Shown piece by piece: positions 11,411 through 17,851 of a DNA stretch of 18,100 bases; the first letter of the stretch is position 1, and the number at the start of each line of letters is the position of its first letter. The stretch comes from a bacterium (GTDB lineage: Bacteria > B130-G9): contig JAGHCW010000030.1 of assembly GCA_021160245.1 (NCBI GenBank), forward strand, positions 1 to 18,100. The letters run 5' to 3'. The notes beneath the pieces are model-generated. The model was not told the origin of the DNA and searched no databases. It worked only from the letters and a program-made list of their open reading frames with translations. A program made the position numbers and the translations under genes.

Positions 11411-12235
11411 TCAGTCTGTGGCGTCTTGAGGCGCGGACAGGGCATCAACTCTGAAAAGAGAGGGAGGGAAGGTCACGTTGACCTCCGGGTCCGAAAGGTG
11501 GATCCTAATCGAGTCGCCGCTCTCTGGAACTTTGAGTATGATTGTGCACGGAATGCGGCATAGCTCTCCGTCAGGTCCCACAAGCTCCTCATAATCAGAA
11601 TAGACCGCCTCAACTTGGGCGCCATCGTTGTGTTTGGGAATCCAGATGAATCTCTCAACGTCGCATGAGCTGGGATCTTCCCTGATAAGCATCGTCGCGT
11701 CTGCCTCATCGGTTGACAAGTCTAGTTGAACAAGCTCCTGTCCGATGCGGATTGTGCTGCCGAAGACAATTGCATCGGTGTCAAACTCCGGCATACCAAG
11801 GGCCGAAGAAACCAGCCATTCCGGCGTAAGCCCCATGATGGAGATGGTGGAATCGGAGGCCCCTCGCCGCTTAAGAAGTGTCAGACTCGTCTCCCCGCGC
11901 TGGGTGAATCGCCCGCCATCAAAAGCAACAACATACCTTGGGTGTCGAAACGGCCCTAGGAACTCGATCCGGAAGCGATTTGGACGCTCCAGCAGAAGCG
12001 CCGCTTTGCCGCGATAGGCCCGGCCGCCGGTCATCATAGTGAGCTTTGTGAAAGACCTAACCGACGTTAGCGTCGCTCGTTCTGAAATCGCTTTGCGAAG
12101 AATCCGTTGCGCCTCATCTACTTCGATCATGACCCGTTGAGGTCCGGTTAAAAGGCTGCATGAGGAAACCATGAGGCTCAAGAGAGCGATGCACAATAGA
12201 AAAAAGAGACAGGCTTTGTTCTCCTGGCTGCTCAT
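11411..12235 (-). CDS. LolB-like outer-membrane lipoprotein
   Basis: A 274-residue predicted lipoprotein. The start at 12235 gives a good lipoprotein signal peptide: a short polar N-terminus, a hydrophobic core and the lipobox VSSC with Cys26 as the lipidated residue. The frame is open upstream to 12385; ATGs at 12295 and 12322 are possible starts but give implausibly long N-regions, and none has a clear ribosome binding site. The mature part resembles the LolA/LolB fold (sequence such as GKAALLLERPNRFRIEFLGP followed by a strand with FDGG), which receives lipoproteins from LolA and inserts them in the outer membrane. Sequence similarity is weak; the position between a TPR lipoprotein gene and ispE is the stronger argument. 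A different LolA-fold lipoprotein is the main alternative. Confidence 0.72.
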   Translation of the reverse strand: MSSQENKACLFFLLCIALLSLMVSSCSLLTGPQRVMIEVDEAQRILRKAISERATLTSVRSFTKLTMMTGGRAYRGKAALLLERPNRFRIEFLGPFRHPRYVVAFDGGRFTQRGETSLTLLKRRGASDSTISIMGLTPEWLVSSALGMPEFDTDAIVFGSTIRIGQELVQLDLSTDEADATMLIREDPSSCDVERFIWIPKHNDGAQVEAVYSDYEELVGPDGELCRIPCTIILKVPESGDSIRIHLSDPEVNVTFPPSLFRVDALSAPQDATD

Positions 12236-12305
12236 TACGCAACGAATTGCAGTCTTTGGTCTCGAGTGAGAGGCTGTGGATATAAGGTTCGACATTGCTC
12301 TCAAT

Positions 12306-13613
12306 TTAGCGGGAAGAGCCATCGTCCCGAGCGGATGAGGAGCTGCTTTCGGACGGTTCGCCAAGAAGCGGAGAGAGAGCGTCAATAAGCTTTAGCAGCG
12401 CCGGGTCGTCGGATTTGGCAGATTCTATGAGCGCGAGATACTTGCGAGCCTCTGCCAGCATCCCCTTTGTCCTGTAGGCAATGGCGAGGTGCGCGCAGAT
12501 TATGGGCTCAGAAGCCGGGTCATCTTTAACCCCCGAGATGGCTTTCTGCAGATATTCTATTGCATCGTCGGTCTTGCCAATCTTGAGAAGACCCCATCCC
12601 AGACTGTCCAGAAATGCTGAGTTGTGCGGCTCCAACGCCAGGGCGGACTTAACAAGTGCGATGCCCTTCAGAACCGTTATTCCCCTGTCGATATAAAGGT
12701 AGCCGAGGTAATTCAGAGCGGTCGCGAAATCGGGTTGAAGCGAGATTGTAGCCTTGAGATGCTCTATCGCTTCTTCTGTCCTCCCGGCCTCGTCCAGTAG
12801 TCTGGCGAGGTGAAAACGGAACATCACGTCATCGGGAGACCGAGACACCATTGCTCGAGCCAAGTCCAGAGCCTTTTCATCTTCTCCACTCAGGCTATAG
12901 GCATCGAATAGGAGCCTCGTTATTCGAGAGTCATCAGGACGCAGCGAAGATGCCTGCTCAAGGTGAGGAACCGCATCGCCCGGCTTGCCAACAAGCAGTA
13001 ACAGTCGGCCGAGTAAAAAATGCCCGGGAAGCGACTCCGGATTCGTATCGAGCATCTTCCTCAATTCCCCGATCGCCGCCTCGTATTGCCTCGAGGCGTA
13101 AAGAAGTTCGACCATCGTCAATCTAAGCCGGCTCTCGTCAAATCCAAGCCGCACAGCTTCCCGGTAGCAATTGATCGCCTCCGGAATGTCAAGAAGCAGT
13201 CTGTGCGCGTCGCCACAGAGAGCGTGCGCCTCGCCTAGGTTTGGCATATTTTGAACTGCAAGGTCCAGCTTGACTATCGCCTCGTTCAACTTGCCCTGTT
13301 CAAGCAACGTCCTGCCCTGTTCAAGACCTATGTGAGATGATGCTGGCAGCCGTCGCGCCGCCTTTTCATACTCCGCGAGAGCCTCGTCGAGATCACCGTT
13401 CAGCGCAAAGAGCTGGCCGTAGCAGTAAAGAGTGTACCCCTCTGCCATCGAGGCGAGCTCAGGGCTTATCGTTGACGTGCTGCTCCATACCGGACCCCCA
13501 CTTTGAGTTTCCGGCTCCTCTGATTGCTTAGTCATGGACGAGCAGGAGAGGAGGCCCAACGATAGCCCCAACAGACAAACCGTTGCCAGATATCTTAAAA
13601 ATCGCCTCTTCAT
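12306..13613 (-). CDS. TPR-repeat lipoprotein (LbcA-like)
   Basis: A 435-residue predicted lipoprotein made almost wholly of tetratricopeptide repeats, roughly ten from about residue 45 to 410. The signal peptide (MKRRFLRYL, hydrophobic core) ends in the lipobox LLSC with Cys24. A block near the C-terminus with the wording ALNYLGYLYIDRG then FLDSLGWGLLKIGKTDDA is typical of the TPR lipoprotein encoded next to lolB and ispE in Pseudomonas (LbcA, partner of the protease CtpA). The role is probably as an envelope scaffold; the partner is unknown. The tail is serine-rich. A GTG at 13646, nine bases after GAGGT, would add eleven residues and is a real alternative start; I prefer the ATG because of the signal peptide. 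Confidence 0.85.
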   Translation of the reverse strand: MKRRFLRYLATVCLLGLSLGLLSCSSMTKQSEEPETQSGGPVWSSTSTISPELASMAEGYTLYCYGQLFALNGDLDEALAEYEKAARRLPASSHIGLEQGRTLLEQGKLNEAIVKLDLAVQNMPNLGEAHALCGDAHRLLLDIPEAINCYREAVRLGFDESRLRLTMVELLYASRQYEAAIGELRKMLDTNPESLPGHFLLGRLLLLVGKPGDAVPHLEQASSLRPDDSRITRLLFDAYSLSGEDEKALDLARAMVSRSPDDVMFRFHLARLLDEAGRTEEAIEHLKATISLQPDFATALNYLGYLYIDRGITVLKGIALVKSALALEPHNSAFLDSLGWGLLKIGKTDDAIEYLQKAISGVKDDPASEPIICAHLAIAYRTKGMLAEARKYLALIESAKSDDPALLKLIDALSPLLGEPSESSSSSARDDGSSR

Positions 13614-13707
13614 AGGCGCAAGAGACAGGACGTTTGACAGTCTCACGGGAATCTGACCTCACTACTCCTTCAGGAAAACATCTCAACTATACTGTAGCCC
13701 ATAGATT

Positions 13708-15882
13708 CTATTTCGGCAATTCACTTCTTATCACACTGACATTTCCGCTGGCATCCTCGACGCGGAGAGTCAGTCTATGTCCTCCGCCGGAGAGTGCGGG
13801 TGTTATGACCTCAAACTTCTCCTCCTTGGAATCGAATATGCCATCTTTGGCAAATACTACGCCGAAGGGTTGTTCATCGATCGCGAGCCACGCGGCCTGG
13901 ATATTGCCGGACGCGTCGAGGAACGTGCCCCGGACTAGATAAGAACCGTCGGGGCGGGACTTAATCCGCCTGATCTTCGCCGTTGGCGGCGTATTATCCA
14001 CTGTGAACGCGTCGCTCTCATCTTCATCACAGAGCTCCTCATTCAGAGGGTTTGATGGGCTGTCACAGACCGAGACCTTGAAGCGATATTCGCCGTCCGA
14101 AAGAGTACTCGTGTCAATGACGTAAAAGGTCAACGGAGTCTCGTTCGCAAGTGGACGCCAATTTCCGGTCGCGCCCTTCATATAAACTGAGTACAAAAGA
14201 TCGTCCTTGTTCGGGTCGCTTGCCTGCCAAGTTACCGCCCGCAGCGTCTTTGTGTGCTTCATCTCAGAGAACTCCTCCAGACGCTTCAGCTTCTGATTGC
14301 GAGCGTTTGTTCCTTGCGCCTTGCATGATCTTATTATGCTGGAGGGGGGGTTGCCCGAATCGTGAACGACGATCTTCCGAATCTTGGGCGAGAGATTCAG
14401 CTGAGCGTACGGAACCACAAGTTCCCCAAGAACGGGAGATTCGGCCTTTCGCGATGCGCTTAAGACGGCCTTAATCTGAATGTACCGGCCAAGCTCGCTC
14501 TTGCACTGGCTTCCCTCCTTCTTGGTCAAAGGCCCTTCCCAGGAGTTCCAGGATTCATCCACCTTTGAGACCTCGCCCGACCTCGTGAAGAGCCGCACGC
14601 CTGTCTTCTTGGGCGTATCTGCATCCCAAGTCACCATGCCCCAACGGGAGCGAGAGCCAGCATCCAGAACTTTCGAGATAATGCTGCCCTCCGGCTTCAT
14701 CGCATTCGGCTGCAGCTCAAATACCTTGGCCACCTCCGATGTGCCTATGGCAAAACCGCCCCCGGACAGCTTGCAGGCGGATATGAACTTCGCGTCCTCA
14801 ATTGACCTCAAAAGATCGGACTCGCCGTCTCTTGTTAAACGCACAACAACGCCCTCGTCCCCTCTATAACCAAAGATAAGCATGTCGCCCTTGTCCCAGC
14901 CCATTGAAAACAGCGTGCTGTCCGGACTCTCGAATATACGCTCGCTATTGCCGCCCTTGTCTATCCTGTAAACGGCAGACTTAAATCTGGACGGTCGTCT
15001 TGGGGGGGCCTTTCCCGGCGGCGGCCCACCGGCCCCCTTCTGTGATGACATCCTGGCCTTAAGGGCGGCAGCCATTGCCTCATTCGTCGGCGGAGGCCCT
15101 GATGGCATAGCGCCACCAGATTCCGTGGTCAAGAGAACGAAGATACTATCGCCATCCGGCAGTATCGTTCTCACCTCCAAGCCCTCGACCTCAAGATGCG
15201 CCTTCAATCCCTTCGAGCCCAAAGTAGAATAGACGATTCCGGAAGATGTGCCCACGAAGAGCTCCTTTCGGAGGGAATCGTAGTGAAGTGTCATAATATT
15301 CTTGGCTTCCAACTCAAGAATCATCTTCCCCTTGCCAGGGCCGTCTATCTTGAAGACACGACCAGAAGGTCCCGTGCCGGCGTAAACCTCGCCCCGTGGC
15401 CCAGCGGCCAACGACCACACGTACTCCTCCCCTGTTTTATAGAGAGTCGTCGCCTTTCCGGTCTTCGCATCAATCCTAAACACTATACCCGAGGGTCCGG
15501 TCCCCACATATATCCGACCTTTGGACACCATGACCGAGTGAATCTGCTGCTCTTTGGAATCAAAGAGAAGCTCAGGCTTTGCGCCCGGCTTCTGCGCATA
15601 GAGTTTGCCATCATTGCCGGTGCCGGCGAATATCGTCCCCGAAGCATCGGTCGCCACGGCCCAAACCTGGGAATCTTTGAGAGCCGCTCTCTCGTTCAAC
15701 TCACAGGACAGGATTATCTTCCCCTTATCCGTTAGTGTAACGCCCTCAAGCTCACAGGCGGCGAAGTCCTTCTTGTTCTCAAGACGGAACTCGCTCGTCG
15801 TCGCCATGGTCATAGAGGCGAGGGTCAAGACGAAGCATATAAGCACAGCAATCCGAATAACACGTGAGCCAAAATTATCCAT
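13708..15882 (-). CDS. secreted beta-propeller protein with C-terminal fibronectin/Ig-like domains
   Basis: A 724-residue exported protein. An N-terminal signal peptide (about 1-27) is followed by a repeated blade motif, with copies FAGTG, YVGTGPSGIVFRID, YAGTGPSGRVFKID and FVGTS at about 85, 125, 167 and 209, then more divergent blades to about 400. A low-complexity insert rich in Pro, Gly and Ala (about 257-300) interrupts the propeller. The region at about 400-500 looks like a beta-sandwich. Residues about 545-640 have a fibronectin-like pattern (VTWQASDPNKDDLLYSVY, then DTSTLSDGEYRFKVSVCD), and the last 80 resemble an Ig-like domain (GGHRLTLRVEDASGNVS). GAGGAG lies just before the ATG. 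Binding or scaffold functions are usual for such proteins; I see no enzyme motif. It lies 45 bp downstream of the S55-like gene. Confidence 0.85.
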   Translation of the reverse strand: MDNFGSRVIRIAVLICFVLTLASMTMATTSEFRLENKKDFAACELEGVTLTDKGKIILSCELNERAALKDSQVWAVATDASGTIFAGTGNDGKLYAQKPGAKPELLFDSKEQQIHSVMVSKGRIYVGTGPSGIVFRIDAKTGKATTLYKTGEEYVWSLAAGPRGEVYAGTGPSGRVFKIDGPGKGKMILELEAKNIMTLHYDSLRKELFVGTSSGIVYSTLGSKGLKAHLEVEGLEVRTILPDGDSIFVLLTTESGGAMPSGPPPTNEAMAAALKARMSSQKGAGGPPPGKAPPRRPSRFKSAVYRIDKGGNSERIFESPDSTLFSMGWDKGDMLIFGYRGDEGVVVRLTRDGESDLLRSIEDAKFISACKLSGGGFAIGTSEVAKVFELQPNAMKPEGSIISKVLDAGSRSRWGMVTWDADTPKKTGVRLFTRSGEVSKVDESWNSWEGPLTKKEGSQCKSELGRYIQIKAVLSASRKAESPVLGELVVPYAQLNLSPKIRKIVVHDSGNPPSSIIRSCKAQGTNARNQKLKRLEEFSEMKHTKTLRAVTWQASDPNKDDLLYSVYMKGATGNWRPLANETPLTFYVIDTSTLSDGEYRFKVSVCDSPSNPLNEELCDEDESDAFTVDNTPPTAKIRRIKSRPDGSYLVRGTFLDASGNIQAAWLAIDEQPFGVVFAKDGIFDSKEEKFEVITPALSGGGHRLTLRVEDASGNVSVIRSELPK

Positions 15883-15927: not shown

Positions 15928-17817
15928 TTAGTACTTTCGGGGCTTGATATTTACTGTCAGCTTCTGCTGTCCGTTCAGGTTGAAATCCGTGTCGAATACC
16001 CATTTCTCTAGGACCTCGAACCGGGCTTCGCTCTGCGTGCCGACGGTCGTCCCGGACGACAGAATCGCATCCGCAGACCCCGGCAGCTGCCGCAGCACCT
16101 CCCTACCGAGCATCCTAGTTCTGCTCCTTCTGGCAAGCACCACGATTAGTTGCCTATGACTCGGCGCCTCAGATAGCATATCTGCTACATCACCGAAGCT
16201 CTTCGGCTCGAATTTGCCCTTCGCGCGCATATGCTCCCACATCTGGTAACTGTCTGCACCGAAGACCAATAACTCTGCGCCTCCGGAATCGCACGCTTTT
16301 GGAATAGGCAGCCGGAACGACTGGATCGTCTCCTTCTGCTCAAATGGCAAAATGCCCACGTCGAGACGGAGGCTCTCCCCGGGGCGGAGTCTTTTCTTAT
16401 CTATGCTCAGAGAAGAGATGTTGGCCATGTCCACCAATTGTCGAACCTTAAGCCGCATCTGAACGCCCTCTACGCGAACATCCTCAAATCCGTTATCTAT
16501 GATCGCCACGAACGGCGCCCACAGAGAGTACAAAAAAGACCGCATGAGATCGCCCTGATAGGCGGAATACGAATCGCGAAGCGCAACCGGCGGGTGATTC
16601 TCGATATTCGCCGTAATCTCCCAATCAATGGCCATCTCCCCGCTCCCAAATTGAAACGTATCCACACTGTATGCCGCGACAAGGGCAAGCATGAATGGGG
16701 CGTAGAACCTGTCTCTGATTATGTCAAAGTGGAGCTTGCGGCTCTTCCCCGTTAGAGCGTCGTTAAGCCATACGTCCGCCGGAAGCATGTCAGGTTTCAC
16801 CCCGATCTTCCCAGCTACCGCCGGATACCTGTCCTGCGTTATCACGCCGATGGGCCTTGAGGCGCACGATATTTTGTAGTTCGATTGGTAGCTGGGGAAA
16901 CCCGTTATGATGGCGCCACTGCACATCGGGTAGCTCACGCTCCCAGCCCCGGACGAGGGATGTCCGTATGCGAGAATCGTATCACCGTCTCTGTAGGTTA
17001 GCGTACCCATCGCGGAAATGTCGAAATCTCCCGTAACGATAGCCTCGCCCAGCGGGCAGCCGGGACGCAATCGGTCGGGATCGATCTCGATGGCTTTCGC
17101 CGAGCTTGATTGAACAGAAACGGGCCCAAAACCGTTGAGCAGCCCATTCATCCCTCCAGCGCTTGATACTAAGGAAAGCGGCAAAGGTGAGAGTTTCGCG
17201 CCCGCAAAGTTGGACAAGAGAGAATTGCTAGCTGCAGCATGGCTCGAGACCTCAAGCTCAGGAGCCATCTGGCAAAACATGGGAGGGGGCGTTAACTTGA
17301 GAGGCAACCTGAACCTTCCACAGTTGTCAAGATATGGTTCCAGCCCGGCCGCCTGTGCTGCGACGAAACCGCCCGAGGCGCGCCTCGAACGGCCCGTTGA
17401 TGGCGCGTTGAGAACGGTCAGCATCTCCTCAATAGGAGTTATTCCGCCGATGGGCTCCTTTTCCGCAACGCCTCCATAAGCCAATGCGCCTATCAGCTTG
17501 CCGTCAATATAGCAAGGGCTGCCGCTCATGCCAGCGAGCACCCCGAACCGCTTAAACCTCTCACATGTCCCCAGGAACATGATCCGATTGCTCTGGGGAT
17601 TTATTCCGGGGATGACGCCGAGTATCTCAATATGAAGCTCCTCAGGCTCAAAACCCTCAAGCGCGGTGAGGCATGTCCCGGTCATTCCCGGTTTGATCTC
17701 GCTGACCGGCATGATCTCGACGTTCGCCCCAAGTCCTATGGAGACGCCTGATAGATAAATAACTGCGGATATAGCCAATAATTTTACAAAACGGTTGGAA
17801 TTCATAGACATTCTCAT
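15928..17817 (-). CDS. exported SpoIVB-type (peptidase family S55) domain protein
   Basis: About 629 residues with an N-terminal signal sequence (hydrophobic to about residue 31). The motif GMSGSPCYIDGKLIGAL at 96-112 matches the serine motif of SpoIVB, the sporulation signalling protease of Bacillus, with Ser98 as nucleophile. A second block, GTLTYRDGDTILAYGHP at about 271-287 with His286, matches the histidine motif of SpoIVB. In SpoIVB the His block comes before the Ser block; here the order is reversed. The position matching the SpoIVB catalytic Asp (15 residues before the Ser) is Gly. Residues about 430-629 look like beta-rich domains ending in a basic tail. The start is uncertain: ATGs at 17832, 17817, 17811 and 17805 are in frame; the promoter position favours 17817 or later. 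Role unknown; perhaps an envelope protease or a catalytically dead relative. Confidence 0.82.
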   Translation of the reverse strand: MRMSMNSNRFVKLLAISAVIYLSGVSIGLGANVEIMPVSEIKPGMTGTCLTALEGFEPEELHIEILGVIPGINPQSNRIMFLGTCERFKRFGVLAGMSGSPCYIDGKLIGALAYGGVAEKEPIGGITPIEEMLTVLNAPSTGRSRRASGGFVAAQAAGLEPYLDNCGRFRLPLKLTPPPMFCQMAPELEVSSHAAASNSLLSNFAGAKLSPLPLSLVSSAGGMNGLLNGFGPVSVQSSSAKAIEIDPDRLRPGCPLGEAIVTGDFDISAMGTLTYRDGDTILAYGHPSSGAGSVSYPMCSGAIITGFPSYQSNYKISCASRPIGVITQDRYPAVAGKIGVKPDMLPADVWLNDALTGKSRKLHFDIIRDRFYAPFMLALVAAYSVDTFQFGSGEMAIDWEITANIENHPPVALRDSYSAYQGDLMRSFLYSLWAPFVAIIDNGFEDVRVEGVQMRLKVRQLVDMANISSLSIDKKRLRPGESLRLDVGILPFEQKETIQSFRLPIPKACDSGGAELLVFGADSYQMWEHMRAKGKFEPKSFGDVADMLSEAPSHRQLIVVLARRSRTRMLGREVLRQLPGSADAILSSGTTVGTQSEARFEVLEKWVFDTDFNLNGQQKLTVNIKPRKY

Positions 17818-17851
17818 TTGTGGGCCATCCATTTATTTAGTTTGCGGGTCG

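Follow-up and report, generated by a model that had tools for sequence, protein, structure and literature searches.

The 634-residue protein encoded in the 18,100-nucleotide stretch of DNA analysed here (the window, which is the whole contig) raises the question of whether the protease domain of SpoIVB (family S55) can occur with its two halves in exchanged order, and whether such a protein would still be an enzyme. Our preferred reading, to which we assign a probability of roughly 0.78, is that the protein is a serine endopeptidase of the S55 type (clan PA), secreted and linked to the cell envelope, with its barrels in swapped order through circular permutation. Briefly, the nucleophile barrel would come first in the chain, followed by a variable linker and then by the barrel with the His and the Asp. 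Folding back on itself, the chain would bring Ser103, His291, and Asp334 together as a triad of the chymotrypsin type that reads S-H-D along the sequence; Asp334 would take the role of Asp102, at a position that is Asn in canonical SpoIVB. The predicted site of action is the periplasm, in association with the outer membrane, where the protein may act in processing or quality control.

The features of the gene and of its putative partner are collected in Table 1. An earlier note on this DNA started the protein at the second in-frame ATG (17817), and its Ser98 and His286 correspond to Ser103 and His291 in the numbering used here. In the 634-residue protein, GMSGSPCYIDGKLIGA occupies residues 101-116 and GTLTYRDGDTILAYGHP residues 276-292. 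A hydrophobic run lies N-terminal to the Ser half in all 44 homologues examined for it. No Pfam match to a PDZ domain was found ahead of the protease domain, and the signal-like segment alone precedes the Ser half.

Table 1 Positions of the S55-type gene, its protein regions, and the neighbouring gene in the window.
Feature	Position	Strand	Remarks
Permuted S55-type protease gene, predicted secreted, 634 aa	15928..17832	minus	one open frame
Signal-peptide-like N-terminus, residues 1-36	17725..17832	minus	basic start, then hydrophobic run LLAISAVIYLSGVSIGLG
Ser half, residues 37-148	17389..17724	minus	corresponds to C-terminal barrel of S55/chymotrypsin-type proteases
GMSGSP motif, residues 101-106	17515..17532	minus	putative nucleophile Ser103 at 17524-17526
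Variable linker, residues 149-244	17101..17388	minus	connects old C-terminal helix with His half
His half, residues 245-400	16633..17100	minus	corresponds to N-terminal half of SpoIVB protease domain
GTLTYRDGDTILAYGH motif, residues 276-291	16960..17007	minus	putative catalytic His291 at 16960-16962
Asp334, proposed catalytic acid	16831..16833	minus	92/92 permuted members
C-terminal tail, residues 401-634	15931..16632	minus	conserved P511, G517, G621 in homologue alignment
Propeller/Ig-like protein, predicted secreted, 724 aa, probable partner	13708..15882	minus	weak propeller and Ig-like Pfam matches

The earlier note had placed the serine block ahead of the histidine block, opposite to SpoIVB, and this order holds: Ser103 stands about 190 residues ahead of His291, whereas all canonical SpoIVBs that we collected have the His first and the Ser some 140-160 residues later. 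The Ser-first order was found in 92 of 92 non-redundant homologues from many families, and none of them shows the His-before-Ser order of family S55. Since order and motifs are both kept in these 92 proteins, the swap is not a matter of chance, and the swapped-order S55 protease domain is confirmed as real and conserved.

The homology of the Ser half to SpoIVB was detected by several routes. Pfam PF05580 (S55) matches residues 37-125 only, through positions 109-198 of its 210 (the C-terminal half of the profile), scoring 25.0 bits where the cut-off is 25; all 42 family members that were scanned match the same profile. Positions 297-396 of the 402 in NCBIfam TIGR02860 match residues 39-138 with 24 bits against an equivalog cut-off of 305, so the protein does not classify as a SpoIVB orthologue. 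In the PDB, only SpoIVB 9lnf matched at the sequence level; residues 222-317 of its chain align with residues 44-139 of the protein. The flanks of the Ser motif also match SpoIVB as had been proposed: EIKPG...TAL-G...EELHIEILGV before it aligns with EVKEG...LTV...EKFDIKIV, and ITPIEEML after it with YGVHIEWML.

Profile comparison with 22 diverse canonical SpoIVBs (hhalign) assigned both halves. It paired the Ser half (37-150) with the C-terminal half of SpoIVB at 99.4 % (E 8e-22); for the His half (245-400) the partner is the N-terminal half, at 61 % (E 8e-5) in a colinear alignment of 82 columns. When the comparison was limited to reference columns, the score of the His half was 30.0, and the best of 200 column shuffles reached 24.1; a reversed-profile control for this half gave a negligible match. 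Taken on its own, over some 80 columns, the His-half match is moderate. With a doubled canonical domain as the target, a low-threshold alignment spans the Ser half of the first copy and the His half of the second. A MAFFT alignment that was blind to the placement of the halves put both halves of one canonical protein likewise. Conserved positions coincide between the permuted and canonical proteins at G276-T277/G217-T218, G290-H291/G233-H234, K320/K271, G329-x4-D334/G283-x4-N288, and G341/G295. The suggestion of a circular permutation is therefore supported, with both halves homologous to the two of SpoIVB and standing in swapped order. To our knowledge, no chymotrypsin-fold protein with a natural circular permutation has been described, and a literature search found none. 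If the reading is true, the family would offer a test case for how far a two-barrel protease tolerates the exchange of its barrels.

Whether the exchanged domain is active depends on its catalytic residues. Ser103, His291, and Asp334 are each present in 92 of 92 non-redundant homologues, Lys320 in 91, and Asp269 in 89. Invariance of the Ser, the His, and an acid is what the earlier note had proposed to look for. It had also pointed to a glycine where SpoIVB has its catalytic Asp, and this residue is Gly88, 15 residues before Ser103. Among the three outcomes that it left open (a Ser/His dyad, another acid, or an inactive protein), the evidence favours another acid. We propose Asp334 because of its conservation and its alignment; 21 of the 22 canonical SpoIVBs carry Asn at this place in the alignment. 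Asp334 lies 43 residues after His291, and in chymotrypsin Asp102 lies 45 residues after His57. The alignments thus give good support to a putative triad that runs S-H-D, which is the clan PA order H-D-S rotated. Two other candidates for the acid were rejected. The equivalent of SpoIVB Asp363 is not conserved in the permuted family and is remote in 9lnf. Asp269 is not invariant and seems to be the counterpart of canonical SpoIVB Asp211, for which reasons a structural role is likelier.

It is unlikely, in our judgement, that catalysis has been lost and that the permuted domain serves as an envelope scaffold or binding module. This alternative could draw on the loss of the residue aligned with Asp363, and on the Ala, Ser, or Gly that the permuted family has at the position of SpoIVB Thr393, which we align with that of chymotrypsin Ser214. 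Inactive forms, however, usually lose one of the three catalytic residues, and here all three are invariant across distant homologues in which most of their neighbours vary. Nor is the loss of the Asp363 equivalent an argument against activity, since Asp363 lies about 24 Å from His236 in the SpoIVB crystal structure of 2025, whose authors proposed Thr393 instead (PMC12502668). An active envelope protease is the most likely prediction. If Asp334 is indeed the acid, the SpoIVB crystal could be reread with a conserved Asn (around residue 290 in B. subtilis numbering), rather than Asp363, at the classical Asp position; a text search of the structure paper gave no mention of this Asn (PMC12502668).

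Structure prediction bears mainly on the Ser half. AlphaFold2 with residues 37-634 and one homologue gave an unusable model (mean pLDDT 33). With residues 37-388, for which one homologue and two canonical SpoIVB halves were supplied as separate rows, the mean pLDDT was 37; the Ser half alone was usable, and the His half had a pLDDT near 30. The modelled Ser half (37-148, local pLDDT about 40-75) matches HtrA proteases in their C-terminal barrels, among them HtrA1 264-367 and DegQ 127-243, with Z values of up to 11.4 (98 aligned positions, rmsd 2.9). HtrA was the top Foldseek group, and the matches listed by Foldseek and VIA include HtrA, not SpoIVB 9lnf. At this model quality, the match fits a second barrel that stands first in the chain. 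The 9lnf crystal has His236 near residue 378 (PMC12502668), and hence the counterparts of both halves are in contact in the related SpoIVB. By analogy with this crystal, we infer that Ser103, His291, and Asp334 may meet in space.

The same contacts might be made between chains, with the Ser half of one protein pairing with the His half of another in a domain-swapped dimer or oligomer, to which we give only a slim chance. The length and variability of the linker would permit such an exchange (38-198 residues between positions 149 and 257 across the 92 homologues, median 89), and sequence data fit pairing between chains as well as within one; however, the shortest linkers already allow the chain to fold back on itself, and no sequence feature calls for exchange. 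It is highly improbable that only the Ser half is S55-like and that the His half is unrelated, its GTxT...GH motif being a mere look-alike: Pfam, NCBIfam, and phmmer do detect the Ser half only, and a published study reports just an N-terminal SpoIVB domain (PMC5491611), but the profile score lies above all 200 shuffles in a colinear match in which conserved residues coincide in several blocks, and a lone second barrel would miss half an active site, yet its Ser103 is invariant.

The permuted protease can be set beside known systems. It shares with SpoIVB of B. subtilis (MEROPS S55, PF05580, 9lnf) the homology of both halves, secretion, the GTxTF...GH and GMSGSP motifs, and the helix after the Ser strand. 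It differs in the reversed halves, in having no detected PDZ domain, in Asp334 where SpoIVB has Asn, in having no Asp at the 363 position, in an extra tail of 235 residues, and in the occurrence of its family far outside endospore formers. No credible relative of the tail was found in the PDB. The HtrA/Deg proteases (DegP, DegS, HtrA1) are periplasmic serine proteases of the envelope; a common clan PA fold is expected, and their C-terminal barrel is the one matched by the modelled Ser half. Unlike the permuted protein, HtrA carries His and Asp before Ser, together with PDZ domains, and no sequence match of the permuted protein to HtrA was found.

The link to the outer membrane comes from the Bacillota. 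Of 149 Bacillota genomes, 35 carry the swapped form and 35 carry Omp85; 33 have both, two have only the one, two only the other, and 112 neither (Fisher p 3e-28, a value that ignores shared descent and is inflated by it). Both are held together by 18 families, and in 27 of the 33 genomes with both, the two genes lie within 15 kb. The genomes with Omp85 and no swapped form (G187 and G228) are 86 % and 72 % complete. The swapped proteins of the two genomes without detectable Omp85 (L184 in G256 and L185 in G290) are short, divergent frames that keep the Ser, the His, and the Asp. Outside the Bacillota the link is barely informative, since Omp85 is found in 364 of 389 sampled genomes; the genome of the window has it. 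Neighbours of the swapped gene in Bacillota include FlgH, FlgI, a DUF748/YhdP-like protein, Omp85, and a PF09992 glycosidase.

An outer-membrane association has precedent in two studies (PMC5007114, PMC5491611). In Negativicutes and Halanaerobiales, Antunes et al. reported a large gene locus for the outer membrane that includes conserved proteins left unassigned (PMC5007114). Poppleton et al. found Vpar_0521 of Veillonella parvula in the outer-membrane fraction and called its role undetermined (PMC5491611). As described there, Vpar_0521 is a longer protein with an N-terminal SpoIVB domain that is kept in diderm Firmicutes, and a DUF2233 gene lies two tags away (PMC5491611); in the loci studied here, PF09992 lies just upstream. 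Judged by its description and this neighbour rather than by its sequence, Vpar_0521 is probably a member of the permuted family. The published account of Vpar_0521 differs from ours in reporting neither a His half nor a permutation (PMC5491611), and the permutation and the triad are not described in the parts of either paper that were consulted (PMC5007114, PMC5491611). If the assignment is true, it would explain a protein that had been singled out as an unidentified component of the outer membrane in diderm Firmicutes.

Beyond the Bacillota, the S55 gene has a different companion. A homologue of the 724-residue protein lies directly downstream of it at 13 of 17 further loci, of which 11 come from other families, and none was seen beside the Bacillota copies. 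The two genes are a conserved module outside the Bacillota, and the 724-residue protein is the best candidate partner in the lineage of the window, in whose genome it is the likely partner or substrate of the protease. A 324-residue frame with no Pfam match (11411-12385, minus strand) overlaps the start of a TPR gene frame (12306-13646); its homologues (37-39 %) were seen in loci of the same family only, in the same order. PADLOC returned nothing, and we therefore see no link to defence. Homologues of the S55 protein with 57-60 % identity occur in three genomes of the same family. One of these three (L005 in G002) is interrupted by an in-frame TGA. A scan of the genome contigs with the single sequence retrieved one relative only, and viral contigs held canonical SpoIVB only.

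The swapped family was found in 93 of the 389 sampled genomes (completeness at least 90 %), spread over many families, with one named member from Acidobacteriota. A protein this common is nevertheless annotated from half of its domain. Weak matches of the canonical type occur in only two of the 389 genomes (G054 and G107), both of the Bacillota group, a label that for the group of G054 is deduced from SpoIVB in nearly all members and from the canonical-type sequence of G054. In a tree of the Ser half, which is unrooted and built on few columns, all canonical proteins fall on one side of one branch (100/100). Since a single branch separates canonical from swapped proteins, a single rearrangement is enough. 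Tentatively, and with more doubt than belief, we raise the idea that the permuted chymotrypsin-fold family may be an ancient outer-membrane component, of which SpoIVB, with its ordinary order, its PDZ domain, and Asn for Asp, would be a side branch confined to the Bacillota. In each of five genomes (G041, G414, G438, G489, and G596), the permuted family is matched three to five times, hinting at lineage-specific expansion.
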